Source: an uncultured Bacteroidales bacterium
GTDB taxonomy: Bacteria > Bacteroidota > Bacteroidia > Bacteroidales > UBA932
Assembly: GCA_944322925.1 (NCBI GenBank)
Contig: CALUQM010000003.1
Location: 48,288 to 112,287 of the forward strand
Direction of reading: 5' to 3'
DNA length: 64,000 bases
Of this stretch, positions 1,183 to 48,364 are shown in pieces. The notes under the pieces are model-generated. The model was not told where the DNA came from. It made no database searches and worked only from the letters and a program-made list of their open reading frames with translations. A program made the position numbers and the translations under genes. The stretch's first letter is position 1. Every line of letters begins with the position of its first letter.

Positions 1183-3063
1183 TCAGTACATGTACCCGGT
1201 CCTCTGAGGATTGCCTCCGAGCTGGGACCATGAATCGGCATGGCCTGAAGACTGGCCCTGGACTGCAAACAGCACAGGCTTGCCGTCTTTCATTCCGTTG
1301 ACATAGACAGTACCGTCAGCGGCGATTGCCGGAGACGTGCGCATTTCGTCGCAAAGTTCGATTTCGGCTACTCTGCTGCCGTCCGCACCGGACAGACGCA
1401 CGAGCTTGCCGAGAGCGGAGTCATTGTAATACACGCATCCGTCGCTGTCCACAGCCGCTACGCCGTTGATATTTCCGTCAGCAGCCGATTCCCAGAGTAC
1501 CGTACCGGAAGGCGATACTGCGGTAACGTATGCCTTCTCGCCGTTTCCGCTTGCAGTAGTGACATACACAGTCCCGCTTTCACCGACAACGCAGCCCAGG
1601 CCGCTCTGCGGCACATCTCCCCTGATACCGACTGTCCATTCAGGTTCGGAAAGCTCGTCGAATGCCGTAAAACTGCCGGAATCGAAGCAGTACAGGATAC
1701 CGCCGCCGGATACCGTTCCGGCAGTATTGTCGAGAAGAAGATATACCTTTCCGTCCTCCGACATTGCAGGCTGCGCTCCGTTCGGAGTGTCCTGCGTGCC
1801 GAGATTATAGTTGTTGCTGCCGGTCTTGTTGTCCGGTCCGAACTTCCATGCGCCTTCTCCGTCAGGATAATATAGCCTGTAGCCCCATTTTCCTCCGGTG
1901 CCGCAGATGATTTTCCCGTCACTCATTGCAAGTATTCCTCCATAGGAGCCTGCATTGGCGTGCATGTCGGTGACAAAGGCTCCGGATTCGCGTTCGAAGA
2001 CCTGGACCTGCCATTTGTTCCATTTTGAACAGTTCCTGTTGCTGATTATCACGTATTTGTCAGTCAGACACGGCGACATGAAGCGTGAACTTGTACCTGA
2101 GCCGAGGTCCACGTACCATTTCTGGGAACCGTTGTCATATACTGCATACAGAGCACCCTTCGCCGCTTTCGGCTCGTCGAAGCTCGAAGCGATATAGACT
2201 ACGCCGTTTTCATCCACTGAAGGAGTAGGAGACTGGTGTCTGATAGAGCCGTCGTTACCCATGGCGGAAGCTCCGTCCTTTCCGATGTCGAATCTCCAGT
2301 TTTCCTTGCCTTCCGTGTCGAAACTTACAAGATGATAGCCTGTGGATGACACGTAGATACTCTGTCCGTCAGGACTTACAGCCGGAGACGTTCCGAATAC
2401 ATAGGCATCCTCCGTGTCGTCATAAGCCTTTTCCCAGAGAAGTTCGAGATGGTTCGCGCCTTTGGCCACTTCCACGGTGACAGTCTTCGACGCAGTCCCC
2501 TTCTTGTCGTCGGTCACTGTCAGGGTCACGTCTACCTGCCCGTAGGATACGAACGTATATTCGATATCCTTGCCGTCGGCCTCGACGACAGTGGTCCCGA
2601 ATGTCCACTCGCGCTGCATGATGGTCCCGTCTTCGTCAGTGGAATTGTCGGTGAATACGACAGGCTCGCCTGCAACGATTTCCTGAGGCTCCCAGCTGAA
2701 ATCGGCCACAGGCTTGATATTGTTGTCCACGACGGAAATCTTCTTTTCGAACGTACCCTTGACGGAACCTGCGTCGGAAGTTACCGTCAGGCTTATGGTA
2801 TAGTCTCCCGGCGTCGAGAACGAGACATTTTCAGGGTTGAAATCGTACGAAGTCTTGCCTTCGCCGAGATTCCACTCGCAGATGGCTATCTGGGCATTCT
2901 CCACTACCGTGGTATTGGTTATCACTACAGGTTCGTACACTTCATAGACATCCTTGTCCGTAGTGAACGAAGCATGCACCTTCACCTCCATTGTCTTCTG
3001 ACAGGAGGCTGCAAGGACTGCAAGCGCCAGCAGTCCGGTCTTTAAAAATCCAGTTGTTTTCAT
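1183..3063 (-). CDS. PKD-domain / PQQ-like beta-propeller lipoprotein, last gene of locus 1
   Basis: A 626 aa probable surface lipoprotein. The signal peptide ends in the lipobox LAASC (Cys21). Two PKD/Ig-like domains follow (about residues 30-113 and 115-200, the second with VTLTVTDDKKGTASKTV). From about residue 205 to the end there are repeated YVSSTGYHLVSFDTEGKENW-type blades typical of PQQ-like beta-propellers. No catalytic motif is recognisable. It lies 15 nt after the EEP-fold lipoprotein and closes the sigma/FecR/SusCD transcription unit. The position and architecture suggest a surface ligand-binding protein in the role SusE/F play elsewhere (inference). Its stop touches the stop of the convergent acyl-CoA synthetase. 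Confidence 0.85.
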   Translation of the reverse strand: MKTTGFLKTGLLALAVLAASCQKTMEVKVHASFTTDKDVYEVYEPVVITNTTVVENAQIAICEWNLGEGKTSYDFNPENVSFSTPGDYTISLTVTSDAGSVKGTFEKKISVVDNNIKPVADFSWEPQEIVAGEPVVFTDNSTDEDGTIMQREWTFGTTVVEADGKDIEYTFVSYGQVDVTLTVTDDKKGTASKTVTVEVAKGANHLELLWEKAYDDTEDAYVFGTSPAVSPDGQSIYVSSTGYHLVSFDTEGKENWRFDIGKDGASAMGNDGSIRHQSPTPSVDENGVVYIASSFDEPKAAKGALYAVYDNGSQKWYVDLGSGTSSRFMSPCLTDKYVIISNRNCSKWNKWQVQVFERESGAFVTDMHANAGSYGGILAMSDGKIICGTGGKWGYRLYYPDGEGAWKFGPDNKTGSNNYNLGTQDTPNGAQPAMSEDGKVYLLLDNTAGTVSGGGILYCFDSGSFTAFDELSEPEWTVGIRGDVPQSGLGCVVGESGTVYVTTASGNGEKAYVTAVSPSGTVLWESAADGNINGVAAVDSDGCVYYNDSALGKLVRLSGADGSRVAEIELCDEMRTSPAIAADGTVYVNGMKDGKPVLFAVQGQSSGHADSWSQLGGNPQRTGYMY

Positions 3064-3078
3064 AAAATGCGGTCAGTA

Positions 3079-4008
3079 TTATTTTGTGAATTCCAGTATG
3101 GCATACACCGGATAATGGTCGGAAATGTACGGAACAGAAGCATACCTCTGCCTGATCGTCCGGTATTCTTCAGGTATGAAGTCCGAACAGAAGATATGAT
3201 CCACGACCTGGGAGGATTTGCCCCAGTTGTTGTATGTTCCGAAGTTGTCTGTTACGGGACTTTCGGCACGGACATCCGTCATGAATTCCTTGATCCCGTC
3301 AAAAATGGCATCCGTGGACTGGGTATTGAAATCTGCCGTCAGGAGCATCGGAAGAGAGTCCTTGTTCAGTTCAGCCATTTTCGACTCTATCAGTTCCATC
3401 GAACGCGCCCTCGCATTCCCGTTCAGGTCGAGATGGGTGTTGATATAGAAGAATCTCGTCCCTGTCGACTTTATCCTGAACACGGCCCAGGTTGCGCTTC
3501 TGTACGAACCGGCGCCCCAGCTGACAGCCTTGGACGGCTCATCTGGAGTGTCGGAAAGCCAGAACGTCCCCCATTTCTCGACAGCGACGTCTGCACTCCT
3601 GTAGAATATGGCCATGAACTCCCCTTTACGCTTCCCGTCTTCACGGCCGACTCCGATATAGTCGTATCCGTCGCAGTTTTCATCCAGATATTCTATCTGC
3701 TGCACCTCTGCTTCCTGAACGCCCATTACAAGAGGCTTCAGGTCTTCCATCATGGCGGGATAAGCGGCCTTGCGGTTGTCCCAGCTGTTGGAAGTTCCCA
3801 GATCGGAAGATGCCGAACCGTACCTTACATTGGAAGACATCACGCATATCGTCTCTCCCGTACCTTCGACTCCCGGATCATCGGGATCCGACGGGGATTC
3901 CTCTTCAGGAGCATACCACTGGGAATAATCCGGTGCAGTCTTGCCGCACCCCACTGCCATGGAGAGTATGACTCCCGCACTGAACAGCAATAGTTTTCTT
4001 TGTATCAT
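3079..4008 (-). CDS. Endonuclease/exonuclease/phosphatase (EEP)-fold lipoprotein
   Basis: A 309 aa exported metal-dependent phosphoesterase. The signal peptide ends in the lipobox MAVGC (Cys21), then an acidic linker to about residue 50. The EEP active-site elements are all present: SSN (N60), GVQEAE (E99), the INTHLDL block (H192, D194), TADFN (D226, N228) and a C-terminal ISDHYPV. This fold covers DNase-I-like nucleases, sphingomyelinase-C-like and inositol-phosphate phosphatases; sequence alone does not choose. Lipid anchoring and placement between SusD and the PKD/PQQ protein favour a nutrient-acquiring phosphodiesterase over DNA repair. It is the only enzyme-like gene of locus 1. Confidence 0.87.
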   Translation of the reverse strand: MIQRKLLLFSAGVILSMAVGCGKTAPDYSQWYAPEEESPSDPDDPGVEGTGETICVMSSNVRYGSASSDLGTSNSWDNRKAAYPAMMEDLKPLVMGVQEAEVQQIEYLDENCDGYDYIGVGREDGKRKGEFMAIFYRSADVAVEKWGTFWLSDTPDEPSKAVSWGAGSYRSATWAVFRIKSTGTRFFYINTHLDLNGNARARSMELIESKMAELNKDSLPMLLTADFNTQSTDAIFDGIKEFMTDVRAESPVTDNFGTYNNWGKSSQVVDHIFCSDFIPEEYRTIRQRYASVPYISDHYPVYAILEFTK

Positions 4009-4037: not shown

Positions 4038-5849
4038 CTACCAGCCCTCGTTCTGGGAAAGTTCATATCCTGCGTTGGCATAATCCCTTATCACCTGTGC
4101 AGGGACAGGATACAGATATTGCCTTCCGTCATCATACCAGTATCTGTCTCCCTGGCCGACCTTGTACACGAGATCGTATCCCGACACCGGGTTCGGCTCC
4201 AGATAAAGGCCAATATTGTCCTGATTCACCGAAATGGCGATATTCCTGTATGCGGCAGGGGCGTCGGAGGCATTCGATTCCGTGAAATAATAGTCATCGG
4301 TCCCGTCGCCGTCTATGTCGACCGGTTTGTCGAGCCCCTCGGCAATATGGATTCCGGTCCACGGCAGTTCCTGCATGAGTTCTCCGCAGGCCCAGCGTCT
4401 CAGATCATTGAAACGGAATCCTTCGGCGACAAGCTCTATCATTCTCTCCCTGCGTATTTCGAGGATGACGGGATCATTGATTTCCGGATAGAATGTCGAC
4501 TGAAGATACCCGTCGACCGATGCCGGCAGCGTTTCTGTACCTCCTTCGATTCCGGCCCTGCGCCTCAACGCACCGACGGTCCTGCTCCAGTCGGCATCCG
4601 TAAGACCGCCAAGCTCCGCCCTGGCTTCGGCATAGTTCAGCAGGACTTCAGCATAGCGGATCAGAGGGATGCTGTTGATATTCTTGGCTCCCCCGTCATA
4701 TTTCGAATCGTCCAGGGTATATTTTATGACCTGGTATCCTGTCAGGCTGACATCCTTTATGTTGGCTACGGCAGCCTTCCCGTCGTAGGTGAATCCCGGT
4801 GTGCGCACCGTCTGCGCAAGGCGTTCGTCCCTGCCGGAAACTTCCTCCCGGAAAGACTTTACGTCATACCCTTCCCTGGAAGTATAAGGCGTGCCGTCGA
4901 GCATGAGATACAGATTCATGAAAGGCCTTACAAGACTCCAGCACAGGCCGTACGACTTGTAATGGTACCACCAGTTCTGCTCCCCGAATATTCCGGCCGC
5001 CTCGTTGGCGCAGACGGCAAGTATCACTTCAGAAGTTATGGGTTCCTCCCTGTAGAACAGGTCGCGGTACGCGCCTTTCTGGCCTCTCGAAGTATTCAGG
5101 CTCAGTCCGCTGTCGTTCATTACGATTGCTGCTGCTTCGGCGGCGGCTGCATAAAGCTCCTCGGCGGAATACTCCATGCCGGTGATGCCATGATATTTCC
5201 TGTATGAGGCTTCGAAAAGGCATATCCTCGACTTCAGGGCCGCTGCCGCCCATTTCGTCAGAGTAGAGCTGCCTGTGGAAGACGTGGCTTCAATATGGTT
5301 GTACGCGAAATCGAGATCAGACATGATGTTCCTGATGATGACGTCGCGGCTGTCCCTGTTCTTGTACATCACATCGTACTGATAGGACTGTATCTCGTTC
5401 TCGAACCACGGCACCTCCCCGTAGGTCACAAGTTTGTCATAGTAGAACCAGGCCCTGAACCATTTTGCTATTCCTATGTAGTTGTCGCGGACTGAGGCTT
5501 CCACGGTGCAGTACCGCGGATCATTGCAGCCGTCGATGAAATAGTTGATGTTCCTCAACGCTCCCCAGCTCCAGTCCGTCGAGGTCTCGGAGTTGTATGC
5601 GCCCTGCTTTATGAACCTGTCGGTGTTGCTGACTGCAGCATAGTCGCACATTGCATCCTTCCTGAAGGCATTTGCAAGAGACGGCAATGCCTCATAGAAA
5701 GAATAGGCGTATGTCTTCAGTCCGGATTCGGAGCCGAAGATCGTTGCCTTGTCCGCCTGCACCTGCATATTTTCCGTCAGGTCGCACGACGGAAGCATGG
5801 CCGCGCATGACAGGATGCAGCATATTATGGATATTCTTGTTTTCATCAT
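4038..5849 (-). CDS. SusD/RagB family outer-membrane nutrient-binding lipoprotein (locus 1)
   Basis: A 603 aa surface lipoprotein that caps its partner SusC and binds substrate. It has a signal peptide with lipobox LPSC (Cys22) and the N-terminal SusD-like segment followed by alpha-helical repeats (NYFIDGCND, AKWFRAWFYYDKL). The C-terminal SusD block includes YAEVLLNYAEARAELGG and ILEIRRERMIELVAEGFRFNDLRRW, the most conserved stretch of the family. The SusC stop lies 8 nt upstream, so the two are co-transcribed. A second ATG directly after the first gives an equivalent start 3 nt downstream. The ligand cannot be inferred from the sequence. Confidence 0.95.
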   Translation of the reverse strand: MMKTRISIICCILSCAAMLPSCDLTENMQVQADKATIFGSESGLKTYAYSFYEALPSLANAFRKDAMCDYAAVSNTDRFIKQGAYNSETSTDWSWGALRNINYFIDGCNDPRYCTVEASVRDNYIGIAKWFRAWFYYDKLVTYGEVPWFENEIQSYQYDVMYKNRDSRDVIIRNIMSDLDFAYNHIEATSSTGSSTLTKWAAAALKSRICLFEASYRKYHGITGMEYSAEELYAAAAEAAAIVMNDSGLSLNTSRGQKGAYRDLFYREEPITSEVILAVCANEAAGIFGEQNWWYHYKSYGLCWSLVRPFMNLYLMLDGTPYTSREGYDVKSFREEVSGRDERLAQTVRTPGFTYDGKAAVANIKDVSLTGYQVIKYTLDDSKYDGGAKNINSIPLIRYAEVLLNYAEARAELGGLTDADWSRTVGALRRRAGIEGGTETLPASVDGYLQSTFYPEINDPVILEIRRERMIELVAEGFRFNDLRRWACGELMQELPWTGIHIAEGLDKPVDIDGDGTDDYYFTESNASDAPAAYRNIAISVNQDNIGLYLEPNPVSGYDLVYKVGQGDRYWYDDGRQYLYPVPAQVIRDYANAGYELSQNEGW

Positions 5850-5857: not shown

Positions 5858-8800
5858 TTAATAAGTAATGGAAATTCCTATGCTAAAACTTTTCATGCTC
5901 GGATAGTTGAATCCGTCGCCTCTCGAATCCGAAATGTCGGAATCCGAGCCTTTGGGAGCATTGGTTATGTCGAAATCACGCGTGTACCGGTACAGAGGAG
6001 ACCAGCTCCACAGGTTTTCTCCGGAAAAGTATATGCTGACATTGGAAAGGCGGAGCCTGTCCGTCCACCTCTTAGGCAGGTTGTAGCCTATCTGGATGTT
6101 TTTCAGCCTGATATAGGATATGTCCTGAAGGTATCTGCTGTTGATATTGGCGGTACCGGCATTCATCGGTCCGTAATAACCGACATATCTCGGCAGATAG
6201 GCATCCCTGTTGTCCTCGGTCCAGTAGTTCCCTACATGCCATGACGGGACCTGGTTGTAAGGCCTGTTGTACATTCCCCAGAAAAGGCTCTCGTCGCTCG
6301 GGAACCAGTCCTGTTTTCCGACACCTTCGAAGAAGGCCGAGAAGAATATGCCGTTCCAGTCGGCGTTGAGCGAAACCGAGTAAATGTACCGCGGCTCGGA
6401 ATTCCCTATTATCGTGCGGTCGCCCGGATCATCGACCGTATCGCTGCCGCGGTCGATCTTGTCATTGTTGTTGAGATCCTCGAAACGCATGTCGCCCGGG
6501 TAGGTTATGTATTTTTCTGAGGTCTGCATTATCTCGTTCTTGTAGCCCTTCCCGCCGAAGGCGTTGTCTATTTCCTCCTGGGTCTGGAAAAGGCCGTTGC
6601 AGACGAAGCCCCAGATTTCACCGATCCTCTGGCCTTCATAATAGTCGCTGAGTTCTCTCGAAGCATTGTTGTACTTGTCGATTACAGAGTAATAGTCGGC
6701 AAGGGTAGCCTTGATCCCGAAATGGAAGGGACGCCTTCCGACTGTCCACGTGTCATTGTAGCTCAGGGACAGTTCGTATCCGTACGTACTCATTTCGGCA
6801 TAGTTTCCCTTTGGCGCGCTTGCTCCGAAAGTACTCGGCAGTGTCGGGCCTACGGTGTACATGTCGAGGGTTTTCCTGATATAGTAATCGCCTGTAAACG
6901 ATATCCTGCCGTCCAGGAAGCCGAGGTCGAGTCCGACATCCAGAGTTCTCGACTTCTCCCAGCCGATATTGTCCGGAATCTGGCTCGGATTCTTCGTGTA
7001 CCTCTGCTTTGCGAGGCCGTCGAGATAGCGCGCCGACGAGCCGGAGCCGGTACCGAAGGTGCTGAACGAAAATTTTTCAAGGTAGGAGTACGGATCGACG
7101 TTGCTGTTGCCGAGTTCTCCGTAGGAAGCCCTGACTTTCAGGTTCGAGATGATTTTGGAATTCACCTTCCAGAAAGGCTCCTGAGACACCCTCCATGCTG
7201 CAGAAGCGGAAGGGAAAAAGCCCCACTGGGAATTGTTAGGGAATTTGGAGCTTCCGTCGTAACGGCCGTTCACTTCGACAAGGTATCTTTCGTCCCAGGC
7301 ATAGTTCAGTCTGAAAAACGCACCCACGTATCTCCACCTGCTGCCTCCGCTCGTAATGCTCATCAGGTCCCCGAGGGCGAAATTCACATGGTCGAGATCA
7401 GGCATGAGAAGTCCGTTCCTTTCGGCGTATGTCGACTTGTAGTCCTGCTGCTCGTAGTTGTATCCGAGGAGAGCCTTGAAATAATGTTTCGAGGCGAATG
7501 TGTCTTCGAATTCGGCATAGGCGTTGGTCGCTATGTAGTTCGTTATCTGGAGCGATTCCTTTATGCTGTCGTCCGACTCCGGCGTACCGAGATAGGTGAT
7601 CTCGTTTATGTATTCGCTGTACGGAATGGCCGTCTTCTTTCTGGTCTCGGTCCAGTCTTTCGACCTGTATGTGAAATCTCCGGTAAGCCTCAACCTGTTC
7701 TCCAGAAAAGCCGCATTGAGGGTGGTGGTAGTCTTGAATGTCTTTGTAGTTCTGTCCATCCAGTTGTTTCCGGACACGAGACCGCCGATTGCGTATGCCC
7801 CGGACTTGGTAAGTGTTCCGTCAGGATTGAATACCGGCACAGACGGATGGCCCTCGTCGTTTATGGATCGCCAGATCACTCCGGAACCTTCCTCCGACGA
7901 GCCGGTAGGCTGATGGTACTTGTCGTATGTGAAATCTATGTTGCTGGACAGGCGGAGCCACGGCAGAATCTGTGCGGTGACTTTGGAGCGAGTATTCATC
8001 GTCCTGTATTTGTCCGGATCGAAATTGAACAGACCGTCATAGTCGTAAAGCCTGCCCGAGAAATAGTAGCTCAGTTTTCCGGAAGTTCCGCTCACGGAAA
8101 TATTGTGAGTCTGGGCTATCGTGGTATTCTTGTAGATGACATCGTAATAGTCGGTATTTCCGTAGTAGACGTATTTCCCGTCAGGATCGACGGTGGTTTC
8201 TACTGTGTTGCCTGCCATCTTCCTCTCGCGGAAGGTCTCGAGCCATGCCTTGGAAAAATCCTGAGTCTTGTTCAGGGTCGTCGGATCGTTGAACCTGTAG
8301 TTGTACCAGGCATCGTAGAAAAGGGATGCGTAGACGTAACCGTCGGACACTACGTCTGGAACGGCTGTCGGCGACTGGATCGAAACGTTGCCGGTATAGT
8401 TGACGGTGAACTTCTCCTTGACGGACGAAGGGTCCTTGGTAGTTATCAGGACTACGCCGTAAGGGGCACGTGAACCGTAGATGGCGGAAGAAGCGGCATC
8501 CTTGAGCACCGATATGCTTTCGATGTCATCGGGATTGAGCATCGCTGGATCTCCTTCCACACCGTCGATAAGGACAAGGGCGCTTCCGCCGGCTCCGATG
8601 GAAGTAGTGCCTCTGATATTGTATGACGCCGACCTGTTGGGCTTTCCGTCGGCAAGGGAAATATTGAGGTTAGGCACTGAACCCAGAAGCATCTGCGTGA
8701 CATTGGCTACAGGCCTGTTCTCGAATCTGTCCGACGACACCTGGTCGACCGCACCGGTGAGATTGACTTTTCTGGCAGTTCCGTATCCTATCACCACTAC

Positions 8801-9388: not shown

Positions 9389-10390
9389 TTATTTATTGGT
9401 TACAAGTTGTTCAGACTGGCCGACCACATAGATCCCGCCGTTCATTTCCCCTGTAAAGGAAATCGGCACTATGAGAGACAGCGCATGCAGGATATCTTCG
9501 ATCGATTCGGAATTGTTCAGAAGGAGCCTGAACTCAGTATCCGCAAGCGGTCCGAGGTCATAGGTAATATTCACTCCGAACTGGGCGGAAAGCCTCCTGA
9601 ACAGGGCTTCAAGGGTAATCGACTCGAAATCTATCCGTCCGTCTATCCATGCCGCATACTGGCCTACCCTCTGCCTCGACACCGCTGTCGTACCGGAAGC
9701 GATATCGTAGTCCAGCAGTTCGCCCGCAGTCATGGCTGTCTCTGTCCCGTCATCGGATACGAAGCACACAGAACCTTCAAGCAGGGCGACCTGAATCTCG
9801 CCCGTCGTCTCATAGCATGATACGTTGAATCTGGTACCCGTCACCTTCACCGTTCCGGACGGAAGATGCACGTGGAACGGATGCTCCTTGTCGGGACTTA
9901 CTTCAAAGAAAGCCTCCCCTTCGACATACACGTCTCTGGACGAGGTCCCGAAGTCAGGGCCGTATCTGAGAACGGAAGCCGAATTGAGCCATACCGAAGA
10001 ACCGTCGGCAAGGACAATGTTTGTCCTCATCCTGTCGGGAACGGTTATCAGAGTTTCCTCGGGACTCATTCCGGAAGTATCCGGCCGCAACACCGAATAA
10101 ACCGTACCCGCAACGATAACGGCAGCCGCAACGGCAGCCGCTGCATACCGTATTCCGCTTAATATCCTCCTGTTCCTGCCGCGGCGTATTCCTGCGGTTA
10201 TCCTGTTGTACATGAGAAGGTCCGACCTTGATGCCGTCCTCCCGGCACGCCATTCTTCTTCCCAGGCTCTAAACTGTTTCCAATGTTCGGAATCAGTGCC
10301 GAGAAAGTCATTCAACAGTATTTCATCCTCAGGAGCAATCGTCCCTTCGAAATACAGGATTGCAAGGTTTTTTGGGGTTTTTCCGTTCAT
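9389..10390 (-). CDS. FecR-family anti-sigma factor (locus 1)
   Basis: Inner-membrane regulator that binds the ECF sigma factor in the cytoplasm and receives the signal from the STN domain of SusC in the periplasm. It has an N-terminal cytoplasmic domain (YFEGTIAPEDEILLNDFL), one membrane segment (about residues 70-92, RYAAAAVAAAVIVAGTVYSV), the FecR domain (IVLADGSSVWLNSASVLRYG ... VYVEGEAFFEVS ... FHVHLPSGTVKVTGTRFNVS) and a C-terminal STN-like DUF4974-type region. I chose the ATG at 10390 (333 aa) because homologous sequence begins there. An in-frame ATG at 10429 would add 13 unconserved residues. A perfect 8-bp inverted repeat (10389-10396/10403-10410) overlaps the chosen start. Confidence 0.93.
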   Translation of the reverse strand: MNGKTPKNLAILYFEGTIAPEDEILLNDFLGTDSEHWKQFRAWEEEWRAGRTASRSDLLMYNRITAGIRRGRNRRILSGIRYAAAAVAAAVIVAGTVYSVLRPDTSGMSPEETLITVPDRMRTNIVLADGSSVWLNSASVLRYGPDFGTSSRDVYVEGEAFFEVSPDKEHPFHVHLPSGTVKVTGTRFNVSCYETTGEIQVALLEGSVCFVSDDGTETAMTAGELLDYDIASGTTAVSRQRVGQYAAWIDGRIDFESITLEALFRRLSAQFGVNITYDLGPLADTEFRLLLNNSESIEDILHALSLIVPISFTGEMNGGIYVVGQSEQLVTNK

Positions 10391-10410
10391 GACAGATGGT
10401 TTTCTGTCAT
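10389..10410 (-). promoter_or_regulatory. Hairpin overlapping the probable fecR start codon
   Basis: Perfect inverted repeat ATGACAGA/TCTGTCAT with a 6-nt loop. On the minus-strand transcript the start codon at 10390 forms the 3' base of the stem. It could limit FecR translation relative to the upstream sigma factor. If translation begins at 10429 instead, the repeat is simply coding. Confidence 0.35.
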
Positions 10411-39743: not shown

Positions 39744-41531
39744 TTAAAATTCGAGTCCGTCATTCCATCCCGGATTCTGGGCAAGGGCGCCGTTGGTCAG
39801 CGAACGCTCGTCGCTCGGAATAGGATAGAGATAATCTCGCGCAGGATTGAAGCCCTGACGCTGGGAAGTACCGGCAGGAGTAACATATCCGCGGGAACCC
39901 TCGCTGAGGAAAATCTCCTTTCCTATCTGGAATGAAGCAGAGGCTTCGGTAGCCGGTTTCGCGCCTTCGTACAGGCAGATGTCAGGCTTGCCGTCACCGG
40001 TCAGGTCATATTCGCCCGGACCGTCGAAATACATTCCGTACATCTCCTGGTCTATGCAGTCTCCTGCAGCCCAGCGCATCAGGTCGAAATACCTGAAACC
40101 TTCCATGGCAAGCTCTATGGTCCTCTCGCGCCGTATTTCGAGAATAACACCCTCGTCCGGTCCGGTGACATTAGGATAGCCGTACTCCTCGCTCTGAAGA
40201 TACCAGTCCGCATTGCCGTTGGCGTCGGAAAGGACGAGATCAGGCATTCCGGCCCTGTCCCTGAGTTTATTTATCGAGATGTCCAGATCCGACTGGTCGA
40301 TGTCTCCGAGTTCAGCCTTGGCCTCAGCATAATTCAGCATCACCTCGCCGAGTCTGAAGACAGGGAGATCGTTTGTGGATCTATCGTTTCTGTCGACCTG
40401 ACCGCCGGAAGCCGAAGGTTCCTGGGTGAACTTGATCGGATGATAACCTGTAACGCACCTCGTAAAGTCAGGGGCCTGCACCGTGCTGGTACCTATCCTT
40501 ATGTAGCCGGTAGACCTTATGGTCTGGGCAAGACGGGGATCCCTGTCGGCCATCTCGTCCTTGAATTCCATGGTCGCCCATCCCTGCCTGTCCGTATATC
40601 TCGATCCGTCCTTCATGAGGTAGGAGTCGATGATCTTTTTCGTAAATCCCGGACAGCCCTGCGTTTCGACTATCGTATATGCCGTACCGTTATGATGGAT
40701 GGCCAGACCGTAATCGAATTTCAGGGCAAGGATGTATTCGTCGGTATTCGCGTCTTCTGCCGTAAACAGGTTGAGATAGTCCTTCTCCGGATCTCCTGTA
40801 TTATAGAGTTTGTAAGGACCGTCGCGGAGAATCTCCTCGGCCGCTTCAGCTGCCTGATTGAGATAATATTCGTATCCGTTGCCCTCGAGAGTCAGCCCGT
40901 GATATTTCCTGTAAGTACCCTCGAAAAGGCAGAAACGGGATTTCAGAGCAAGGGCAGCCCACCTGTTGGCACGGTAAACGCTCGGCTCGGAAGGAAGATT
41001 CTCTATGGCATAGTCGATATCCTTGATCATGTTCTGCATCACGAGCTCCCTCGAATCGCGCGGCTTGTACAGATCGGGATCTGCAGAACCGAGCTGCTTG
41101 TCGTACCATGGCACGTCGCCGTATCTCTTGACCTTTTCATAATAGAAATACGCCCTGAAAAATCTTGTCAGCGCCGTATATTTTACAAGGGCTGCCGGAT
41201 CCTCGCACTGCTCCGGAGCCAGTTCCAGCAGAGTGTTCATTTTCCTGAGATCGACCCAGTCCCACGCAGTGCTGGTTTTCGGGACTGTTCTCTTGGTTCC
41301 TCCGATCAGGGCATCAGAAAGTACGTCTTCTATCAGCTGGTCGCTCTGCTCGTCGAAAGGAGACTTGTCGAGGAGATTGTTGTAGAAGGTATTGCTGAAA
41401 AGCTGGAGATCGGTCTCGGTCTTGAAAAAGGCATCCGGAGACATGGTGTCCAGAGGCGTCTTGTCGAGCATGTCGCAAGCAGAAAAGACCGGGAACAGTA
41501 TAGTGATAATCGCTATTAAATATTTTTTCAT
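39744..41531 (-). CDS. SusD/RagB family outer-membrane nutrient-binding lipoprotein (locus 3)
   Basis: About 595 aa with lipobox FSAC. SusD signatures: DMLDKTPLDTMSPDAFF, ALTRFFRAYFYYEKVKRYGDV, FRLGEVMLNYAEAKAELGD and ILEIRRERTIELAMEGFRYF. In layout it is closest to the locus 1 SusD. I chose the ATG at 41531 (MKKYLIAIITILFPVFSAC) as the natural signal-peptide start; an in-frame ATG at 41543 adds four residues. It is coupled to the SusC gene 10-20 nt upstream. Confidence 0.95.
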   Translation of the reverse strand: MKKYLIAIITILFPVFSACDMLDKTPLDTMSPDAFFKTETDLQLFSNTFYNNLLDKSPFDEQSDQLIEDVLSDALIGGTKRTVPKTSTAWDWVDLRKMNTLLELAPEQCEDPAALVKYTALTRFFRAYFYYEKVKRYGDVPWYDKQLGSADPDLYKPRDSRELVMQNMIKDIDYAIENLPSEPSVYRANRWAALALKSRFCLFEGTYRKYHGLTLEGNGYEYYLNQAAEAAEEILRDGPYKLYNTGDPEKDYLNLFTAEDANTDEYILALKFDYGLAIHHNGTAYTIVETQGCPGFTKKIIDSYLMKDGSRYTDRQGWATMEFKDEMADRDPRLAQTIRSTGYIRIGTSTVQAPDFTRCVTGYHPIKFTQEPSASGGQVDRNDRSTNDLPVFRLGEVMLNYAEAKAELGDIDQSDLDISINKLRDRAGMPDLVLSDANGNADWYLQSEEYGYPNVTGPDEGVILEIRRERTIELAMEGFRYFDLMRWAAGDCIDQEMYGMYFDGPGEYDLTGDGKPDICLYEGAKPATEASASFQIGKEIFLSEGSRGYVTPAGTSQRQGFNPARDYLYPIPSDERSLTNGALAQNPGWNDGLEF

Positions 41532-41552
41532 TTCATCAGTCATTTTAAGATG

Positions 41553-44500
41553 TTAGAAAGTGATGTCTATACCGAACATATACGTCTTCTGCCAAGGATA
41601 GTAAGCATTGTTGTAAGCATCATCCCTATCGATAGCAGCCTCCGGGTCCATATAAACAGTATTCTTCTTGAGAGGAGACCAGTAGCAGAGATTCTCTCCG
41701 GAGAAATAGACCCTGATCTGGTCTACGCCTATCTTTCTGGTGAGTTTCACAGGAATGGTATAGCCCACAGTAAGATTCTTGAATCTCAGATAGCGGATAT
41801 TCTGAAGATAACGGTCGTTTACCTTCGACAGAGGTCCTGAAGTGGCAGAATATGCCATAGGTCTCGTAAAGTAGGCGTCGGTATTGTCCACATCCCAGAC
41901 TTTGTCGAGGAAGTTCTTGGGAAGATATGACAGATACGGGTATGAATACGGTCCCCAGAACGGCATGCTCTGTCCTGACGGATACCAGTAATGGTTTCCT
42001 ACGCCCTGGAAGAAGGCGGATACGTCGAAGCCGTACCAGTTGAATCCGAGGGTGATACCGTATGAAAGGCTCGGCAGAGAGTTTCCGAGAATCTCGCGGT
42101 CACCGGGATCGTCTACCGTATCTGAACCGATGTCGAGCCTGTTATTGTTGTTCAGATCGAGGAATTTAAGGTCACCTGCCTGCCATCCTCCGGTCACCCT
42201 GTTATTGATATAGCTGAGGTCGACCTGGGAAGCGTAAGCCTGCGCTTCTTCCGTAGTCTGGAAAAGTCCGTCCGTGCGGAATCCCCAGATTTCTCCGATT
42301 CTCATGCCTTCATAGTAATCGAGGGCAAAGGACTTGTTAGGATTGTCGAATTTGGTGACTATGGATCTGTAGTCGCTGAGATTGAAGCCTACATTATAGC
42401 TGAACGGCTTTCCGCCCAGGGTGAATCCGTCCCTCCAGCTGAATGATATCTCATAGCCGGACGTACGCAGGTCGGCGACATTCATGTCAGGAGATGACGC
42501 TCCGTAAACGCTCGGAAGAGCGATACCTGCGGTAAGCATGTTCAGGGTGTTCCTGACATAGCCCTCTACCGTAAGGTTGAGCCTGTCGTTGAACATTCCG
42601 AGGTCGATACCGACATTCCACTGCTGGGCGGTCTCCCAGGTCAGGTCGGAAGCCACAGGCTTGGACAAGGTGGCATATTTCGCCATGGAAGAACCTTCTC
42701 CGAAAGAGAATGCGTCGAAATCTTCGATAGATATCTCTCTGAGGAATGCATAATAGGATGAGACATTCTGATTGCCGAGGCTACCGAAAGATGCCCTGAG
42801 CTTGAGGTTGTTGACGACATCCTTGGCAGGAGCGAAGAACGGCTCCTCGGAAATTCTCCAGCCCACCGAAGCCGAAGGGAAGAAGCCCCAGCGGCCGCTG
42901 CTTGCGAATCTCGACGTACCGTCATAACGTCCGCTGACTTCGAACAGATATCTGCCCTTGTAGTCATAGTTGACACGGGCGAAGACTCCGAAGAGGGCGT
43001 ATTCGTTCTGGCCTCCGTTTACTTCAGTCATGATTTCACCGTTCTCGTTAGGCACCACGAGATCGAGGTCGTTGAGTTCCGTTGTGATAAGGTTCTCGCC
43101 GTAGGCCCTTATGTCCTTTCGGTATTCGGACTCATAGTTGATACCTGCCACGGCCGTAAGATGATGGGCATTGTTGTATGTCTCGTCATACGTGGCGTAG
43201 ACATTCGTGGAATAATAGTTCCATGTGTCAGCCGTTTCTTCCAGAGAGTCCTTGCCGGCACCGGTATCGTAGACACCGAGTTCCTCGCCAGGATTTTCCC
43301 TGTAGTAGAACGGAGCCTTGCGCTCGGTATTCCTGTTCTGGTGAAGCCTGTATGTGAAGTTGGCGGTGATCTTGAAGGTCTCTATCGGAGATATCACGAG
43401 TTCCGTAGTATTGGCGAAATCGGTCTTCCTGTGAAGATTCTGGTCCTTGCCTTCGCTCAGGATAATATGACGTCCGTTTGCGACGTTATAGTTTCCGTTA
43501 AACCACGGTGAAGCGTAAAGCCATGAACCGTCAGGGTTTTTCATAGGGAAACATGCAAGGGCGTGACGGGCACCGTAGGCCAGGGCGTTCTGGATATTAC
43601 CTTCGGCTCCTACGAAATCGTATGTGGAGCTGTAGAAGGAGGTGTTGTTGGACATGGTAGCCCACTTGTTGATACGGAAATCGATCTTGGACCTGAGATT
43701 GTATTTCTGGTAAACGTCAGGATTTTCCTTGAGAATACCCACCTGACGGTCGTAGGCTCCGGAAAGCATGTACTTGATATCCTTGTTTCCGCCGCTGAGA
43801 GATATGCTGTGCTGCTGTACAGGCCTCTTGTCGTTGTACATCATGTGCCACCAGTCGTAGTTTCCGTAGTAGGCCCAGCGTTTCTGTCCGTTGCGCTCGA
43901 CTTCCATTACCCACGGACGGTCAGGATGTTCTGTCTTGTCGTTCACGCGGGCAAGAAGCTGCTGCATGTCGTATTCGTTGTAGTCGAGATACGTTGAAGA
44001 ACCTGTTTCAGCCTGCCAGAACTTGTTGATAGTGTACACGGACCAGTAACCTGTGGTCTCGTAATCCGTGGAAGTTGTCGGTTCCTGCCATCCGAAACGG
44101 CCGCTGTAACGGACTGTAGCCTTGCCGTCCTCGGAAGTACCGCTCTTGGTAGTGACGAGAATCACACCGAATGCGGCACGCGCTCCGTACACGGCGGCAG
44201 CGGATGCGTCCTTGATCACGGAGATGGATTCCACGTCATTCGGATTGACCCTGTCGAGCTCTCCCACAGCACCGTCGATCAGGACGAGAGGAGAGGTGGA
44301 GTTGATGGATGCGGTACCACGGATATTGATGGTAGGAGTGGCGCTCGGGTCGCCCGACGATGTGGTGATGTTGAGACCGGCAACTGAACCCTGGAGCATG
44401 TTGGTAACGGAATGCGCCACCCTGTTCTCGAGCTGCTTGTTGCTTACCGTAGCGACAGCACCGGTCAGGTTCACTTTCTTCTGAACGCCGTATCCGACGA

Positions 44501-44828
44501 CGACGGTCTCGTCGAGCATCAGGTTGTCTTCCTGCAGATAGATATCGATGGCACTCCTCGATGCAGGGAGATTGACTTTCTGTTCCATATAGCCAAGACA
44601 GGAAACCACGAGAGTGACATCACCGTCCGGGACACTGAGTGTGAAGGAACCGTCGTCGGAAGTCATGCTGCCGACCGTCGTTCCTTCTACCATTACCGCT
44701 GCACCTATGACGGGCAGCTCATCGGCATCAAGAACCTTTCCTGATACTTGTCTATCCTGTGCAGACAGGGAGATACCCCCCCTTATCAGCAATGTCAGGA
44801 CAAGAATGAAAGATTGGAATTTTCCCAT
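41553..44828 (-). CDS. SusC/RagA TonB-linked outer-membrane transporter without STN domain (locus 3)
   Basis: A 1091 aa TonB-dependent transporter. The signal peptide (MGKFQSFILVLTLLIRGGIS, cleavage after LSAQ) leads straight into the carboxypeptidase-regulatory-like domain (VSGKVLDADELPVIGAAVMV), then a TonB-box-like DETVVVGYGVQ, a plug with IRGTASINSTSPLVLIDGAV and VESISVIKDASAAAVYGARA, and a barrel ending MFGIDITF. The open frame extends to 44960, but those 44 residues look non-coding and the ATG at 44828 starts the signal peptide. It has no STN domain and no sigma/FecR gene nearby, so regulation must differ from loci 1 and 2. Confidence 0.96.
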   Translation of the reverse strand: MGKFQSFILVLTLLIRGGISLSAQDRQVSGKVLDADELPVIGAAVMVEGTTVGSMTSDDGSFTLSVPDGDVTLVVSCLGYMEQKVNLPASRSAIDIYLQEDNLMLDETVVVGYGVQKKVNLTGAVATVSNKQLENRVAHSVTNMLQGSVAGLNITTSSGDPSATPTINIRGTASINSTSPLVLIDGAVGELDRVNPNDVESISVIKDASAAAVYGARAAFGVILVTTKSGTSEDGKATVRYSGRFGWQEPTTSTDYETTGYWSVYTINKFWQAETGSSTYLDYNEYDMQQLLARVNDKTEHPDRPWVMEVERNGQKRWAYYGNYDWWHMMYNDKRPVQQHSISLSGGNKDIKYMLSGAYDRQVGILKENPDVYQKYNLRSKIDFRINKWATMSNNTSFYSSTYDFVGAEGNIQNALAYGARHALACFPMKNPDGSWLYASPWFNGNYNVANGRHIILSEGKDQNLHRKTDFANTTELVISPIETFKITANFTYRLHQNRNTERKAPFYYRENPGEELGVYDTGAGKDSLEETADTWNYYSTNVYATYDETYNNAHHLTAVAGINYESEYRKDIRAYGENLITTELNDLDLVVPNENGEIMTEVNGGQNEYALFGVFARVNYDYKGRYLFEVSGRYDGTSRFASSGRWGFFPSASVGWRISEEPFFAPAKDVVNNLKLRASFGSLGNQNVSSYYAFLREISIEDFDAFSFGEGSSMAKYATLSKPVASDLTWETAQQWNVGIDLGMFNDRLNLTVEGYVRNTLNMLTAGIALPSVYGASSPDMNVADLRTSGYEISFSWRDGFTLGGKPFSYNVGFNLSDYRSIVTKFDNPNKSFALDYYEGMRIGEIWGFRTDGLFQTTEEAQAYASQVDLSYINNRVTGGWQAGDLKFLDLNNNNRLDIGSDTVDDPGDREILGNSLPSLSYGITLGFNWYGFDVSAFFQGVGNHYWYPSGQSMPFWGPYSYPYLSYLPKNFLDKVWDVDNTDAYFTRPMAYSATSGPLSKVNDRYLQNIRYLRFKNLTVGYTIPVKLTRKIGVDQIRVYFSGENLCYWSPLKKNTVYMDPEAAIDRDDAYNNAYYPWQKTYMFGIDITF

Positions 44829-44889: not shown

Positions 44890-46866
44890 TTATTTATAGG
44901 CATCAGTGGAGAACGGCTTTGGCCTGACCATGTTCTCTGTCCAGGTGTGTCCGAATTCATCCTTTACGGTTATAGTCAGATCTTCGTCGGCCGAAGCGGC
45001 TGTAACCTTGAAGAAATGGGTGAATTTTTCGGTTATGAAATTAGGACTCGACGTTATCGTGCTGCTGTTGAACCTCTTGACTGTCAGCGCGGCTATGTGC
45101 AGAGGGTCGTATGCCCATTCCTCGGTGTATTCCAGAGTCCTGCCGTCCTCGCCGGTGACCGTAAGGGTCCAGTCCGGATTCCAGTTCCAGATATTGATCA
45201 GCACCTTGTTGTCGCTCTGTCCCGGATAGGCGCTTATATACTTCTGGAATGCAAGTTTTGGAAGGGTGTTGGTCAGGTTCGGAACGTCGTCCATCGAGAA
45301 GGCCACATTGTTCAGGTCATAGCTGCGGAACTGGTAGTCCTCGTCCTTGCCTGTAGCCTTGTACAGCCACTCCATGTCGGTGCCGTTTATATCCCAGATG
45401 GAATATCCGCCCGGGGCTCCGTCGAGACTTATGTTTATGCCTGAAGTCAGATGTCCCGACCACCACCAGGATGCGCACACGGAACCTGCATTATGCTCGA
45501 AAATATCCCTTCCGCCTACTATGTTCTCCTCCGGCACTACATTGAAGATCATGTGTGTATGTCCGGTAAGGAAATGAACCTTGTACCCGTCGAGGATATC
45601 GAAAAGCTGATTCGTGTTGGACGTGTCGTGGTCGATTCTGAACCTTGAAGAAGTAGTCACAGGATAGAAGATCTGGGCATGGGTGGATATGATAAGAGGG
45701 GTATCCTTGCTTACGTACGAAAGATCCTTTCTCAGCCATGCAAGCTGTTCCGATGACAGGGTCTTCTTGTAGTTGCGGGAATCGGTGCCGTCATAATTGC
45801 TGCAATCTATGTCGTCGATGACGACGAAATGGACTTTTCCGATATTGAACGAATAGAATGTAGGCGCTATGTTGTTCACATACTGGGTAGCGGCATCGAA
45901 GTCCGAAAATGTCTTCATGTCATTGTCATGATTGCCCATCGTATGGAATATCTGCAGTCCGTCTATGGCCTGGTTCATGGTGAACAGGTAATCAGGGAAA
46001 GCATACGAATTGCTGTACCAGTACAGATCCCAGGTCATGTCTCCGAGGGTAAGGGCGTAGATGTTTTCGCTGCTGTGTGCGGCGAGATAGTCGCTCACGT
46101 CATTCGTGAAATTCCTGAACTGGGAGAGATCGCTCGTCCTGTTGGCAAGGTGCATGTCACCGAACACGAGGAGTTTGAAGTCATCCTGGCCCGGGACCTC
46201 GGTAAGGACGAAGTCAGCCCGCTCGGCCTCATTCTTCGCAGCCTTCAGATAATGGTGGAACTGCGGAAGTATGCCGTCAGAAGGCACTTCATAGCCGCTC
46301 GGGACGGAGATGAACACATATCCCCATTTCTTGTCGGAAGCCATCTGATAGAATCCGTCCGCGTCGGTAACAGTCACTTCTACTCCGTCGGACACCACGA
46401 CTCCCGGGATTCCGTCCCCGTCGCAGGTCACAAGACCGTAAACCGTGGATTCAGGATCCGGTTCGACAGGAATGACTCCGGAAACAATCGTGACATACAG
46501 CTGGTTCCTGTTTCCTATCTGCTTGCGGTTTCCGTCCCTTCTTATGAAAACGGTATAGCTGCCCTGAGGAAGGGAGCTTGTGAAAACTGCGGAAAACGAT
46601 GATGAAGAAAGGTCCGTAATCTTGCCGAGAATCATGGTTCCGGCCTCGGACTCGAGGAGAATCTCATCGGTTTCGAGAGGAGCCTTGCCGTCGAGGATCT
46701 GGAATGTCAGGGTAGTCACGCCGTCATCTTCGGTCGCCTCCACATATTCAGGTATGGCGAACGACACATCGATTCCCGAAGCCGTGGTTTCCTCCGGCTC
46801 CTGACACGAATATGCTCCCAACAGGACGAACAGTACGGAGATTGTCAGACAGAATATTTTTCTCAT
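44890..46866 (-). CDS. Calcineurin-like metallophosphoesterase lipoprotein (locus 3)
   Basis: A 658 aa paralogue of the locus 2 phosphoesterase with the same architecture: lipobox AYSC (Cys21), Ig-like domain (about 30-135), MetallophosN-type domain (about 145-230), catalytic core and MetallophosC-type domain. Metal-binding motifs are intact: FGDMHL, LGDMTWD, MGNHDND, STHAQIF and TGHTHM, then HNAGSVCASWWWSG and DGAPGGYSIWDI. The start at 46866 is chosen because the signal peptide begins there (MRKIFCLTISVLFVLLGAYS); the longer frame to 46953 overlaps the upstream transporter gene. It is the only enzyme-like gene of locus 3, between the GlpT-type transporter and SusC. Confidence 0.92.
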   Translation of the reverse strand: MRKIFCLTISVLFVLLGAYSCQEPEETTASGIDVSFAIPEYVEATEDDGVTTLTFQILDGKAPLETDEILLESEAGTMILGKITDLSSSSFSAVFTSSLPQGSYTVFIRRDGNRKQIGNRNQLYVTIVSGVIPVEPDPESTVYGLVTCDGDGIPGVVVSDGVEVTVTDADGFYQMASDKKWGYVFISVPSGYEVPSDGILPQFHHYLKAAKNEAERADFVLTEVPGQDDFKLLVFGDMHLANRTSDLSQFRNFTNDVSDYLAAHSSENIYALTLGDMTWDLYWYSNSYAFPDYLFTMNQAIDGLQIFHTMGNHDNDMKTFSDFDAATQYVNNIAPTFYSFNIGKVHFVVIDDIDCSNYDGTDSRNYKKTLSSEQLAWLRKDLSYVSKDTPLIISTHAQIFYPVTTSSRFRIDHDTSNTNQLFDILDGYKVHFLTGHTHMIFNVVPEENIVGGRDIFEHNAGSVCASWWWSGHLTSGINISLDGAPGGYSIWDINGTDMEWLYKATGKDEDYQFRSYDLNNVAFSMDDVPNLTNTLPKLAFQKYISAYPGQSDNKVLINIWNWNPDWTLTVTGEDGRTLEYTEEWAYDPLHIAALTVKRFNSSTITSSPNFITEKFTHFFKVTAASADEDLTITVKDEFGHTWTENMVRPKPFSTDAYK

Positions 46867-46927
46867 GATGATTTTCACTACTTTGCTTTGACGATTCTGT
46901 TTTTTTGTTATTTCCAACACTTTTTGT

Positions 46928-48364
46928 TTATGCTTCAGCCATTTTCTTCTCACTGCTCCATGTCAGGCCGCAAAGCAGGATTGCAAGTACGCTTGCGACG
47001 GACAGGAGAATGAAAGTGAAATGCCAGCCCATCGACTCGGACATCGTTCCCATGACCATCTTGGAAAGAATGGCGTCGCCGAGAAGATAGCCGAACAAGC
47101 CGACGAAACCGGCTGCAGTACCTGCTGCATTCTTAGGTACGAGATTCAGCGCCTGGATACCGATAAGGGCTACCGGACCGTAAATGCAGAAACCTATGAG
47201 GCAGAGTGCGAAATACACGAGGCCTTTCATGGTAGCCGTAACGGCTTCAGGAGAATTTCCGGCAAGGAAGGTCGCGATAGGCTCGGCCTGCCAGTAGATC
47301 AGGGTTCCTATAAGGACAGCCGCCATGAATATTATATTAGGAGGCGTACATCTTCCCTTGAAGAATTTGGAAGATATCCATCCGCAGATGATGGTTCCAG
47401 GGATTCCGGCATAGTTGTGAAGGGCGAACGCAAGGTTGCTCTCCTTGTCGTTCATTATGTTCATTTCCTGAAGGTAGGTAGGAGCCCAGTCGCCAACACC
47501 GTACCTTACCATATATACGAAGGCATTTGCGAATGCAATGACCCAGAGGAACTTGTTTTTGAACACATAGTCCACGAAAAGAGTCTTGAACGGGATCTTC
47601 TCCCCTGTCTTGTCGGCTTTCTTGACTCCGGTATAGTCATTCCTCCAGTCCTGCACGGAAGGAAGGCCGCAGGCTTCCGGCCTGTCCCTGAGGGCCCACC
47701 AGCAGAATATGGCTATCAGTATCGCCACGGCCGAAGGCACGATGAAAGCAGCCCTCCAGGTCTGTTCTATGCCGATTCCTGCAAAAATAACGACTCCGAG
47801 GGAAACAAGGAGTCCGAGAGTACCGCCTCCGAGAGTATGGGAGGTGTTCCATATCGACATCTTGAAACTGCGTTCATTCTGCGAGAACCAGTATGCCATG
47901 ACCCTGCCGCATGGAGGCCATCCCATACCGGAAAGCCAGCCTATGATAAGCATCAGGGCGAAGACTATGCCCACATTCAGGGCCTGGTTCAGTCCGAACG
48001 GGATGAAGCCGACGCACATCATCGTGATGGCGGACAGCAAAAGTCCCACAACCAGGAATTTCCTTGCATCCGAACGGTCGGACACGCTGCCCATGATGAA
48101 CTTGCTGAACGCATAGGCTATGGAGACCGCCGACATGGCGATGCCGACTCCGGCCTTGTCCATCAGCCCCTGTTCTATCATGTCCGGAGCAGCAAGCGAA
48201 AGGTTTTTTCTAACGAGATAATAAGCGGCATAGCCGAGAAACGCTCCCATGAAGACCTTGAAACGCATAGACTTGTAGACTTTGTCTATCTTGTCTTTGG
48301 GAAGAAGTGGCTTAGCCACCGGTGGATCGAAAAATCTTGACATTTTTTTAGCAGTTAGTTTCAT
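46928..48364 (-). CDS. GlpT-family organophosphate:phosphate antiporter (MFS)
   Basis: About 478 aa with 12 predicted membrane segments. The N-terminal KVFMGAFLGYAAYYLVRKNL, the motif MGWPPCGRVMAYWFSQNER and the segment WNTSHTLGGG are characteristic of the organophosphate:Pi antiporters (GlpT, UhpT, UhpC). It probably imports glycerol-3-phosphate or a sugar phosphate in exchange for phosphate. The start is at 48364 (MKLTAKKM, AAGG upstream) or 48343 (MSRFFDPP, which matches usual family starts). It lies 61 nt before the phosphoesterase gene on the same strand, with a good -7 promoter element upstream, so it likely heads the locus 3 transcript. Confidence 0.9.
   Translation of the reverse strand: MKLTAKKMSRFFDPPVAKPLLPKDKIDKVYKSMRFKVFMGAFLGYAAYYLVRKNLSLAAPDMIEQGLMDKAGVGIAMSAVSIAYAFSKFIMGSVSDRSDARKFLVVGLLLSAITMMCVGFIPFGLNQALNVGIVFALMLIIGWLSGMGWPPCGRVMAYWFSQNERSFKMSIWNTSHTLGGGTLGLLVSLGVVIFAGIGIEQTWRAAFIVPSAVAILIAIFCWWALRDRPEACGLPSVQDWRNDYTGVKKADKTGEKIPFKTLFVDYVFKNKFLWVIAFANAFVYMVRYGVGDWAPTYLQEMNIMNDKESNLAFALHNYAGIPGTIICGWISSKFFKGRCTPPNIIFMAAVLIGTLIYWQAEPIATFLAGNSPEAVTATMKGLVYFALCLIGFCIYGPVALIGIQALNLVPKNAAGTAAGFVGLFGYLLGDAILSKMVMGTMSESMGWHFTFILLSVASVLAILLCGLTWSSEKKMAEA

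Follow-up and report, generated by a model that had tools for sequence, protein, structure and literature searches.

In Escherichia coli, the glpTQ and glpABC genes encode the transporter GlpT, an exported glycerophosphodiester phosphodiesterase (GDPD), and the anaerobic dehydrogenase for sn-glycerol-3-phosphate. Systems that pair phosphodiesterases with SusCD, a TonB-dependent outer-membrane transporter and its SusD lipoprotein, are already known as well. In Flavobacterium, such pairs, termed PusCD, are induced by phosphate depletion, the F. johnsoniae locus PUSI joins SusCD to PF00149 and PF16670 phosphodiesterases, and inner-membrane transporters of organic phosphorus are also reported nearby (Lidbury et al. 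2020, PMC8115612). Going by that description, PusCD is the nearest precedent for the genes that we analyze here. These lie in a stretch of 64,000 nucleotides (hereafter, the window) from an uncultured Bacteroidales bacterium whose draft genome comprises 2.25 Mb in 78 contigs. The window holds three SusCD loci, all on the (-) strand, at 1183-11019 (locus 1), 12339-27596 (locus 2), and 33004-48364 (locus 3), and a phosphoesterase-fold gene is present in the strand run of each of the three SusCD pairs. Judged by gene order across relatives, locus 3 is a recurrent module, and by tree and neighborhood the SusD proteins of loci 1 and 3 form one supported clade tied to phosphoester enzymes, a link that is new.

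How do these loci compare with the described systems? The likeness to E. coli glpTQ/glpABC lies in a GlpT-family transporter, an exported GDPD, and GlpABC, whereas the window adds SusCD, two calcineurin-like phosphoesterase domains, and a lipoprotein, and the genome's own glpABC stands on another contig. The likeness to PusCD, as described, lies in SusCD beside calcineurin-like and other predicted exported phosphoesterases. Unlike in that description, the host here belongs to the Bacteroidales, and the genes include a MetallophosN/MetallophosC lipoprotein, a fusion of a calcineurin-like metallophosphoesterase (MPE) with a GDPD, GlpT, and, in relatives, glpABC (PMC8115612). Bacillus subtilis GlpQ/PhoD offers a GDPD with the same catalytic residues, a second phosphodiesterase, and sn-glycerol-3-phosphate as product; there, a Gram-positive cell recycles its own polymer, whereas the window's genes would act on a foreign polymer taken in by SusCD (PMC7086022).

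Locus 3 as a recurrent module

Locus 3 runs from a GlpT-family organophosphate transporter of the major facilitator superfamily (MFS; 46928..48364; top NCBIfam match TIGR00712) through MPE3, a calcineurin-like phosphoesterase lipoprotein (44890..46866; MetallophosN PF16371, Metallophos PF00149, and MetallophosC PF16370), the transporter SusC3 (41553..44828; assigned by Pfam, no STN domain detected), the SusD3 lipoprotein (39744..41543; PF07980/PF14322), and a BACON lipoprotein that is perhaps similar to surface-glycan-binding proteins (38206..39720; PF13004 at 22.6 bits, cut-off 25). After a 202 bp gap come an exported GH31 of the alpha-glucosidase/xylosidase family (35274..38003; PF01055, E 1e-59; signal peptide by eye) and the MPE-GDPD fusion (33004..35256; PF16371, PF00149, PF16370, and PF03009), which has a signal peptide without a Cys and is predicted to be periplasmic. 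The SusC3 start is the Met at 44828, the first in frame past the MPE3 stop; computations used 44834. The gap holds a terminator-like hairpin of 15 pairs (38110..38147, (-) strand), from a scan that found 13 sites in the window against a shuffle mean of 14.0. A promoter scan of the window, with 19 sites where shuffled sequence averaged 16.4, gave no useful signal.

The original prediction, which had read the region as a single dedicated route for phosphodiester-containing glycoconjugates, named its main genes correctly. An EEP-fold lipoprotein at 3079-4008, MetallophosN/Metallophos/MetallophosC lipoproteins at 18997-20925 (MPE2) and 44890-46866 (paralogues, 40-43% identical), and the exported fusion at 33004-35256 were all recovered, and the GlpT-family antiporter gene does head locus 3, with TIGR00712 as its best match, though below the cut-off. 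The fusion had been placed between loci, but it ends the locus 3 strand run, 17 bp past GH31, the hairpin at 38147-38110 notwithstanding. Two of the three SusCD loci had also been called free of glycosidases. By the definition of a polysaccharide utilization locus as SusCD plus a glycoside hydrolase or lyase, locus 2 qualifies with GH36 and GH2, the locus 3 run reaches a GH31 that sits behind the terminator-like hairpin, and only locus 1 has none.

MPE3 and the GDPD half of the fusion keep their motifs. In MPE2 and MPE3, all three Pfam domains score over the cut-off and the metal-ligand positions are kept. Positions D237, H239, D276, N312, H313, H396, H436, and H438 are invariant in 28 aligned proteins (MPE2, MPE3, and 26 of 49 listed relatives), and we expect this set, from what is known of the family, to bind two metals. 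A search of the PDB with the MPE3 sequence gave no match up to E 0.1. The MPE3 model (pLDDT 86.6) had its best Foldseek matches among purple acid phosphatases, followed by 2nxf (a dimetal phosphatase) and CD73. The GDPD half of the fusion scores above the PF03009 family threshold and matches 3ch0 (1e-53) and B. subtilis GlpQ 5t91. Its catalytic H, R, E, D, H, and E, compared by the residue roles given for GlpQ (PMC7086022), are kept in 14 rows, repeats included. The BACON lipoprotein model (pLDDT 83.8, pTM 0.56) showed weak fold matches to SGBP-B 7k44, 3zmr, and CBM4 and CBM22 entries.

With MPE3 as the query, a collection with a single genome for each species yielded 59 loci, from 57 genomes by contig name (L043 and L061 share one genome, as do L054 and L057). 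The closest named relatives are from Alistipes, at 59-61% identity, and the further named ones are all from Bacteroidota. Among loci with enough downstream DNA, SusC stood directly downstream of the MPE3 relative in 49/56, SusC and SusD in 46/54, and SusC, SusD, and the BACON lipoprotein in 42/51; the seven without SusC directly downstream are L026, L054, L056, L058, L061, L062, and L063. In L010-L012, a related protein, with a PHP domain in the one copy scanned (L010), sits between MPE and SusC. We rejected GH31 and GH2 as conserved core genes, because relatives above 100 bits were found in 1/144 and 0/144 related loci, a set that includes overlapping stretches. A plasmid search gave best matches of only 36% identity, with calcineurin-like and GDPD genes adjoining in two Hymenobacter plasmids.

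A GlpT-family gene (over 150 bits within the fetched stretch) was nearby in 10/59 MPE3 loci. In L015, the GlpA, GlpB, and GlpC genes (all above curated cut-offs), a GlpT-like MFS gene (below its cut-off), and a GDPD gene stand directly upstream, and L014 has, by eye, the same layout. The window GlpT is the sole match in its own genome at E<=1e-90, and that genome's glpABC is a glpA-glpB-glpC operon. Among GlpT copies of 60% identity or more in the window's family (249 genomes), 12/17 lay within 5 kb of MetallophosC, compared with 3/43 of the other copies (Fisher p 1.5e-6). The two genome sets overlap, in that L026 is G394:C14, L018 is G025:C34, and L056 is G270:C6. A tree of 82 MPEs, of which 15 are GlpT-linked, requires at least 10 changes of the linkage label, a count that contig ends can inflate by hiding GlpT. 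These changes suggest that the link has been gained or lost repeatedly. The score filter for this tree kept only 3 GDPD-fused rows; both this tree and the SusD tree below are quick searches with some long branches.

One potential explanation for these genes is phosphate scavenging, in which PusCD-type systems would free phosphate from any phosphodiester and the glycerol would be incidental. GlpT is a phosphate-linked antiporter, as such a role would favor. F. johnsoniae PUSI, as described, provides the model, in that SusCD and phosphodiesterases are induced there by phosphate depletion (PMC8115612). However, no pho-type regulator was present among the 30 window proteins scanned, other frames lying outside that scan, and the presence of glpABC alongside the module in L014/L015 speaks for use as carbon. 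Loci 1 and 2 carry ECF/FecR pairs and a LacI-family regulator stands by locus 3, regulators that are usual at carbon-use loci. Taken together, we regard phosphate scavenging as rather improbable.

The LacI-family gene (48560..49618, (-) strand; PF00356/PF13407) adjoins GlpT. It belongs to a block at 48560-53055 with a PfkB kinase, a KDPG aldolase, and an MFS protein nearest to the galactonate-transporter subfamily. The block flanks GlpT also in L207, where LacI again stands by GlpT and PfkB, in a stretch without MPE or SusCD.

A SusD clade tied to phosphoester enzymes

We searched the same family genomes with SusD3, which brings in no bias from phosphoesterase queries. At 45% identity or more, scoring the best candidates (at most five) per genome, this gave 28 full-length rows from outside the window, a partial row (G394:C9) being excluded. 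Coordinate lists served to score eight of them, and from the remaining 20 we fetched 13, chosen by hand without knowledge of what they contained; the last 7 of the 28 lie outside the resulting 21-locus count, as does L228, which was fetched for a known EEP. By coordinates, seven of the eight adjoin MetallophosC and one adjoins EEP. In 11 of the 13 fetched loci, a gene for EEP, for the phosphodiester glycosidase NAGPA, or for each of them lies near SusCD; the exceptions are L224, with neither among its frames, and L229, which ends at a contig edge and whose one scanned neighbor is without a Pfam match. Thus, 19/21 SusD3-like loci counted stand beside a calcineurin-like, EEP, or NAGPA gene.

The window's own genome, counted likewise without phosphoesterase-query bias, gave the same picture. 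It has 23 SusD genes, of which SusD1 and a SusD on contig C9 are most similar to SusD3; every other one scores at most 120 bits against it. A phosphoester gene (MetallophosC or EEP) lay within 6 kb of 3/3 clade SusDs and 1/20 others (SusD2) (p 0.002). In a quick tree of 61 SusDs, a 35-row clade with SH-aLRT 100 holds SusD1, SusD3, and the C9 protein and none of the other 20. Many rows in this tree came from phosphoesterase queries, so the tree alone is no proof of the link; the rows free of that choice are L216-L227, L229, and the own-genome SusDs.

Two further arrangements were seen. The C9 locus (L230, C9:50000-69900) is a fourth phosphoester-linked SusCD locus in this genome, its SusCD lying between two EEP genes. 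At L228:11412-14751, a tandem pair of EEP genes and, after it, a GlpT-like MFS gene (27% identical) stand beside a SusC1-type SusCD.

These comparisons bring locus 1 into the argument. It runs from an ECF sigma factor (10456..11019) and FecR anti-sigma factor (9389..10429) through SusC1 (5858..9379; weak STN match), SusD1 (4038..5849; 36% identical to SusD3 and in the same supported clade), and the EEP-fold lipoprotein phosphoesterase (3079..4008; PF03372, E 4e-8) to a PKD lipoprotein (1183..3063; PF18911) with a weak beta-propeller match, all on the (-) strand. The PKD protein had no NCBIfam match and none above 100 bits in the 144 related loci. In relatives L161 and L162, SusC, SusD, EEP, and a 708-residue protein form one run, and the L161 copy of that protein, the one scanned, has His-phosphatase and NAGPA domains by Pfam. 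A reading that fits L161-type loci is that NAGPA would uncap a sugar phosphodiester and EEP would remove the phosphate. In L147, a locus-3-type SusCD with a BACON/DUF5689 protein carries EEP in the place of MPE. No NAGPA was found in a search of the window's own genome. The claim of a phosphodiester route thus gains support for locus 1, by the SusD clade that it shares with locus 3 and by its L161/L162 neighbors.

Could these instead be ordinary glycan loci, in which the phosphoesterase merely clips a phosphate ornament? In the PDB, the locus 1 EEP has relatives in 3mpr and 4c1r (E about 1e-38). The latter is a mannosyl-6-phosphatase of the EEP fold, presumably from the yeast-mannan locus of B. 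thetaiotaomicron, which would be the model for such clipping. GH36 is kept in both locus 2 orthologues, and the partners of MetallophosC are varied, with neuraminidase-like and NanA-like genes among them, both of which favor ornament clipping. However, unlike the context of 4c1r, locus 1 has no mannan glycosidase (none for alpha-mannan in a Pfam scan of its run), and its relatives carry the His-phosphatase/NAGPA protein instead. There is no glycosidase from GlpT through BACON in locus 3, nor any in the locus 1 run, and the three glycosidases of the window are not conserved in MPE3 relatives, among which no systematic search for other glycosidases was made. Ornament clipping also leaves the GlpT, GDPD, and glpABC links unexplained, and we consider it doubtful as an account of the region.

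Locus 2 and MetallophosC genes at large

Locus 2 is of another type. Its genes, all on the (-) strand, encode an ECF sigma factor (26991..27596), a FecR anti-sigma factor (26002..26997), SusC2 (22636..25926; weak STN match), SusD2 (20918..22618; outside the SusD1/SusD3 clade), MPE2, the MPE3 paralogue (18997..20925; 43% identical to MPE3; PF16371, PF00149, and PF16370), a PKD/fn3 lipoprotein (17688..18977; Pfam), a GH36 of the alpha-galactosidase family (15458..17644), and a GH2 of the beta-galactosidase family (12339..15455; Pfam), with gaps of 43 bp before GH36 and 2 bp before GH2. A search with MPE2 gave 34 places, of which 20 were fetched. Two other genomes (L127 and L128) carry locus 2 minus GH2, GH36 being present in both. 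Its substrate is probably an alpha-galactoside. With its different SusCD type and its GH36 in both orthologous loci, the part of the original prediction that drew locus 2 into a phosphodiester route is weak.

The idea of one pathway across the whole region did not survive comparison. In genomes G347 and G253, the locus 2 genes, the MPE-SusCD cassette, and GlpT are on three separate contigs, and the pieces lie at least ~13 kb from contig ends in these draft assemblies, so we rejected a single region-wide pathway. The three loci do not form a single conserved unit.

Are MetallophosC genes enriched near SusCD at all? We drew 40 of 120 MetallophosC places at random in the 249 family genomes and excluded the 3 in the window. 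Of the resulting 37, 18 were within 6 kb of SusC or SusD (binomial p about 4e-7), 12 of them within 2.5 kb, against a background in which about 12-14% of random points fall within 6 kb of SusD (23 SusD genes, 2.25 Mb), this background counting SusD only, in one genome, while the sample counts SusC too and scores contig ends as no. The family is thus enriched near SusCD, yet its partners vary, and it is no marker for one substrate. Two observations concern its settings. In the window's own genome, a MetallophosC protein (L168, C57:1-8760) stands beside neuraminidase-like, NanA-like, and, as judged by appearance, sulfatase-like genes, unusual company for a phosphoesterase, and in L183, L185, L190, L201, and L203, MetallophosC lies inside open frames of about 1080-1430 residues.

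EEP genes also occur apart from SusCD, as a background. Of 20 regions fetched from the places found in an EEP search, 3 carry a SusD1- or SusD3-type SusCD (L147, L161, and L162), L164 has another SusCD type on the opposite strand, about 3 kb off, and 16 have no match to the window SusC/SusD proteins. EEP is fused to GDPD in one frame of L164 (8700-10421), and near this fusion are, by sequence appearance, a ROK-kinase-like and a second GDPD-like protein. In L148, L149, and L151 (three of five regions examined closely), an exported-looking EEP adjoins a gene that looks like dnaE.

These counts bear on whether common SusCD loci and common phosphoesterase-fold genes stand together by chance. In favor of chance, 19/37 MetallophosC places are without SusC/SusD within 6 kb (short contigs scored as no), and there are the 16/20 EEP regions without a window-type SusC/SusD, with dnaE-like genes adjoining three of the five examined closely. 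Against it are a gene order conserved over 42-49 loci and the SusD clade result. Chance co-location is largely refuted for locus 3 and could stand for locus 2; as an account of the whole, we hold it to be very improbable.

Proposed pathway and significance

From the gene families, the MPE3 and GDPD-half motifs, the gene order, and the SusD clade established by comparison, we infer a substrate, enzyme activities, a surface location, a flow through the pathway, and a role for GH31. Our preferred reading, which we hold to be somewhat probable, sees locus 3 as a counterpart of glpTQ equipped with SusCD, with locus 1 as a sister SusCD locus and locus 2 as a separate alpha-galactoside locus. The most likely substrates of locus 3 are glycerophosphodiesters or polymers of glycerol phosphate, with sn-glycerol-3-phosphate as the compound delivered. 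At the outer membrane, a phosphodiester substrate would be bound and trimmed by the MPE3 and BACON lipoproteins, SusC3/SusD3 would import the trimmed pieces, and periplasmic MPE-GDPD would free sn-glycerol-3-phosphate, which GlpT would carry into the cytoplasm in exchange for phosphate and GlpABC would oxidize. GlpQ cuts unsubstituted glycerol phosphate and halts at alpha-glucosylated units (Walter et al. 2020, PMC7086022). GH31 may strip alpha-glucosyl groups that would otherwise block GDPD, so its place beside GDPD would suit an alpha-glucosylated polymer such as wall teichoic acid. Locus 1 pairs an EEP phosphatase with a sister SusCD from the phosphoester-linked clade and would serve another phosphorylated glycan, its phosphoester link being supported by SusD clade membership. 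Locus 2, whose SusCD is of another type and whose phosphoesterase is the MPE3 paralogue, would be the alpha-galactoside locus. The idea of a phosphodiester-glycoconjugate route gains most at locus 3, from the recurrent module and its GlpT, GDPD, and glpABC links.

Several observations weigh against this reading. The window GlpT scores 503.9 bits against a TIGR00712 cut-off of 632.55 (PgtP equivalog, 287.9; UhpT, 214.5), and 49/59 MPE3 loci are without a GlpT match within the fetched stretch. Restricted to genomes with a MetallophosC gene, the GlpT linkage falls to 12/15 versus 3/11 (p 0.015), and since the genomes are related, the counts are not independent. By fold, MPE3 is nearest to purple acid phosphatases, a group made up mainly of monoesterases. 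At the first metal motif, the MPE half of the fusion reads D-S-Q, where MPE2 and MPE3 read D-x-H, so that this half carries the domains but is of questionable activity. The signal for surface export, at least two acidic residues past the Cys, is present in only 14/70 MPE lipoproteins. The GH31 relative is rare, standing only in L205, in the order GH31 > GlpT > MPE-GDPD. L026 has GlpT > MPE > MPE-GDPD without SusCD, and L020 has GlpT, MPE, and MPE-GDPD around a different SusCD type, layouts which suggest that the three can stay linked while SusCD is lost or exchanged. As for the clade, the 6 kb limit of the own-genome count was our own choice, and a C23 case at 6.6 kb would make it 2/20. The MPE-linked SusDs of locus 2 (along with L127 and L128), L193, and L195 fall outside the clade, and MPE stands beside SusD-like_2 proteins in L020 and L173. 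MPE thus pairs with several SusD types and is by itself no marker of the clade.

Two other readings concern the substrate. The GDPD, GlpT, and glpABC together are the classic route for deacylated phospholipids, and such head groups, glycerophosphocholine for example, could be what the cell scavenges. However, SusCD and a lipoprotein with weak carbohydrate-binding folds suggest a larger ligand, and the NAGPA and EEP neighbors of the same SusD clade suggest sugar phosphodiesters. On balance, head-group scavenging seems unlikely. A broader proposal, possible but tentative, is that a monophyletic Bacteroidales SusCD clade handles phosphodiester glycoconjugates and has calcineurin-like, EEP, and NAGPA enzymes as interchangeable partners. 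Locus 3 would then be a teichoic-acid branch feeding on Gram-positive polyglycerolphosphate, and GH31 (in locus 2, GH36) would remove alpha-glycosyl groups that stand in the way of GDPD. The alternatives overlap with our preferred reading and with each other, and their probabilities are not meant to sum to one.

What would a SusCD-equipped glpTQ counterpart mean for the Bacteroidales? SusCD systems are normally assigned by their glycosidases, and loci without glycosidases therefore stay unassigned; in a search of the open-access literature, we found no SusCD locus from the gut for which glycerophosphodiesters or teichoic acid had been named as the substrate. A literature search on the MetallophosN/MetallophosC names and accessions returned only plant purple-acid-phosphatase work and none on the function of these families, for which the module would serve as a handle on activity. 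A SusD clade that predicts a nearby phosphoester enzyme gives glycosidase-less loci a testable substrate class. These data suggest a Bacteroidales route to glycerol phosphate from teichoic acids, lipids, or phosphoglycans.

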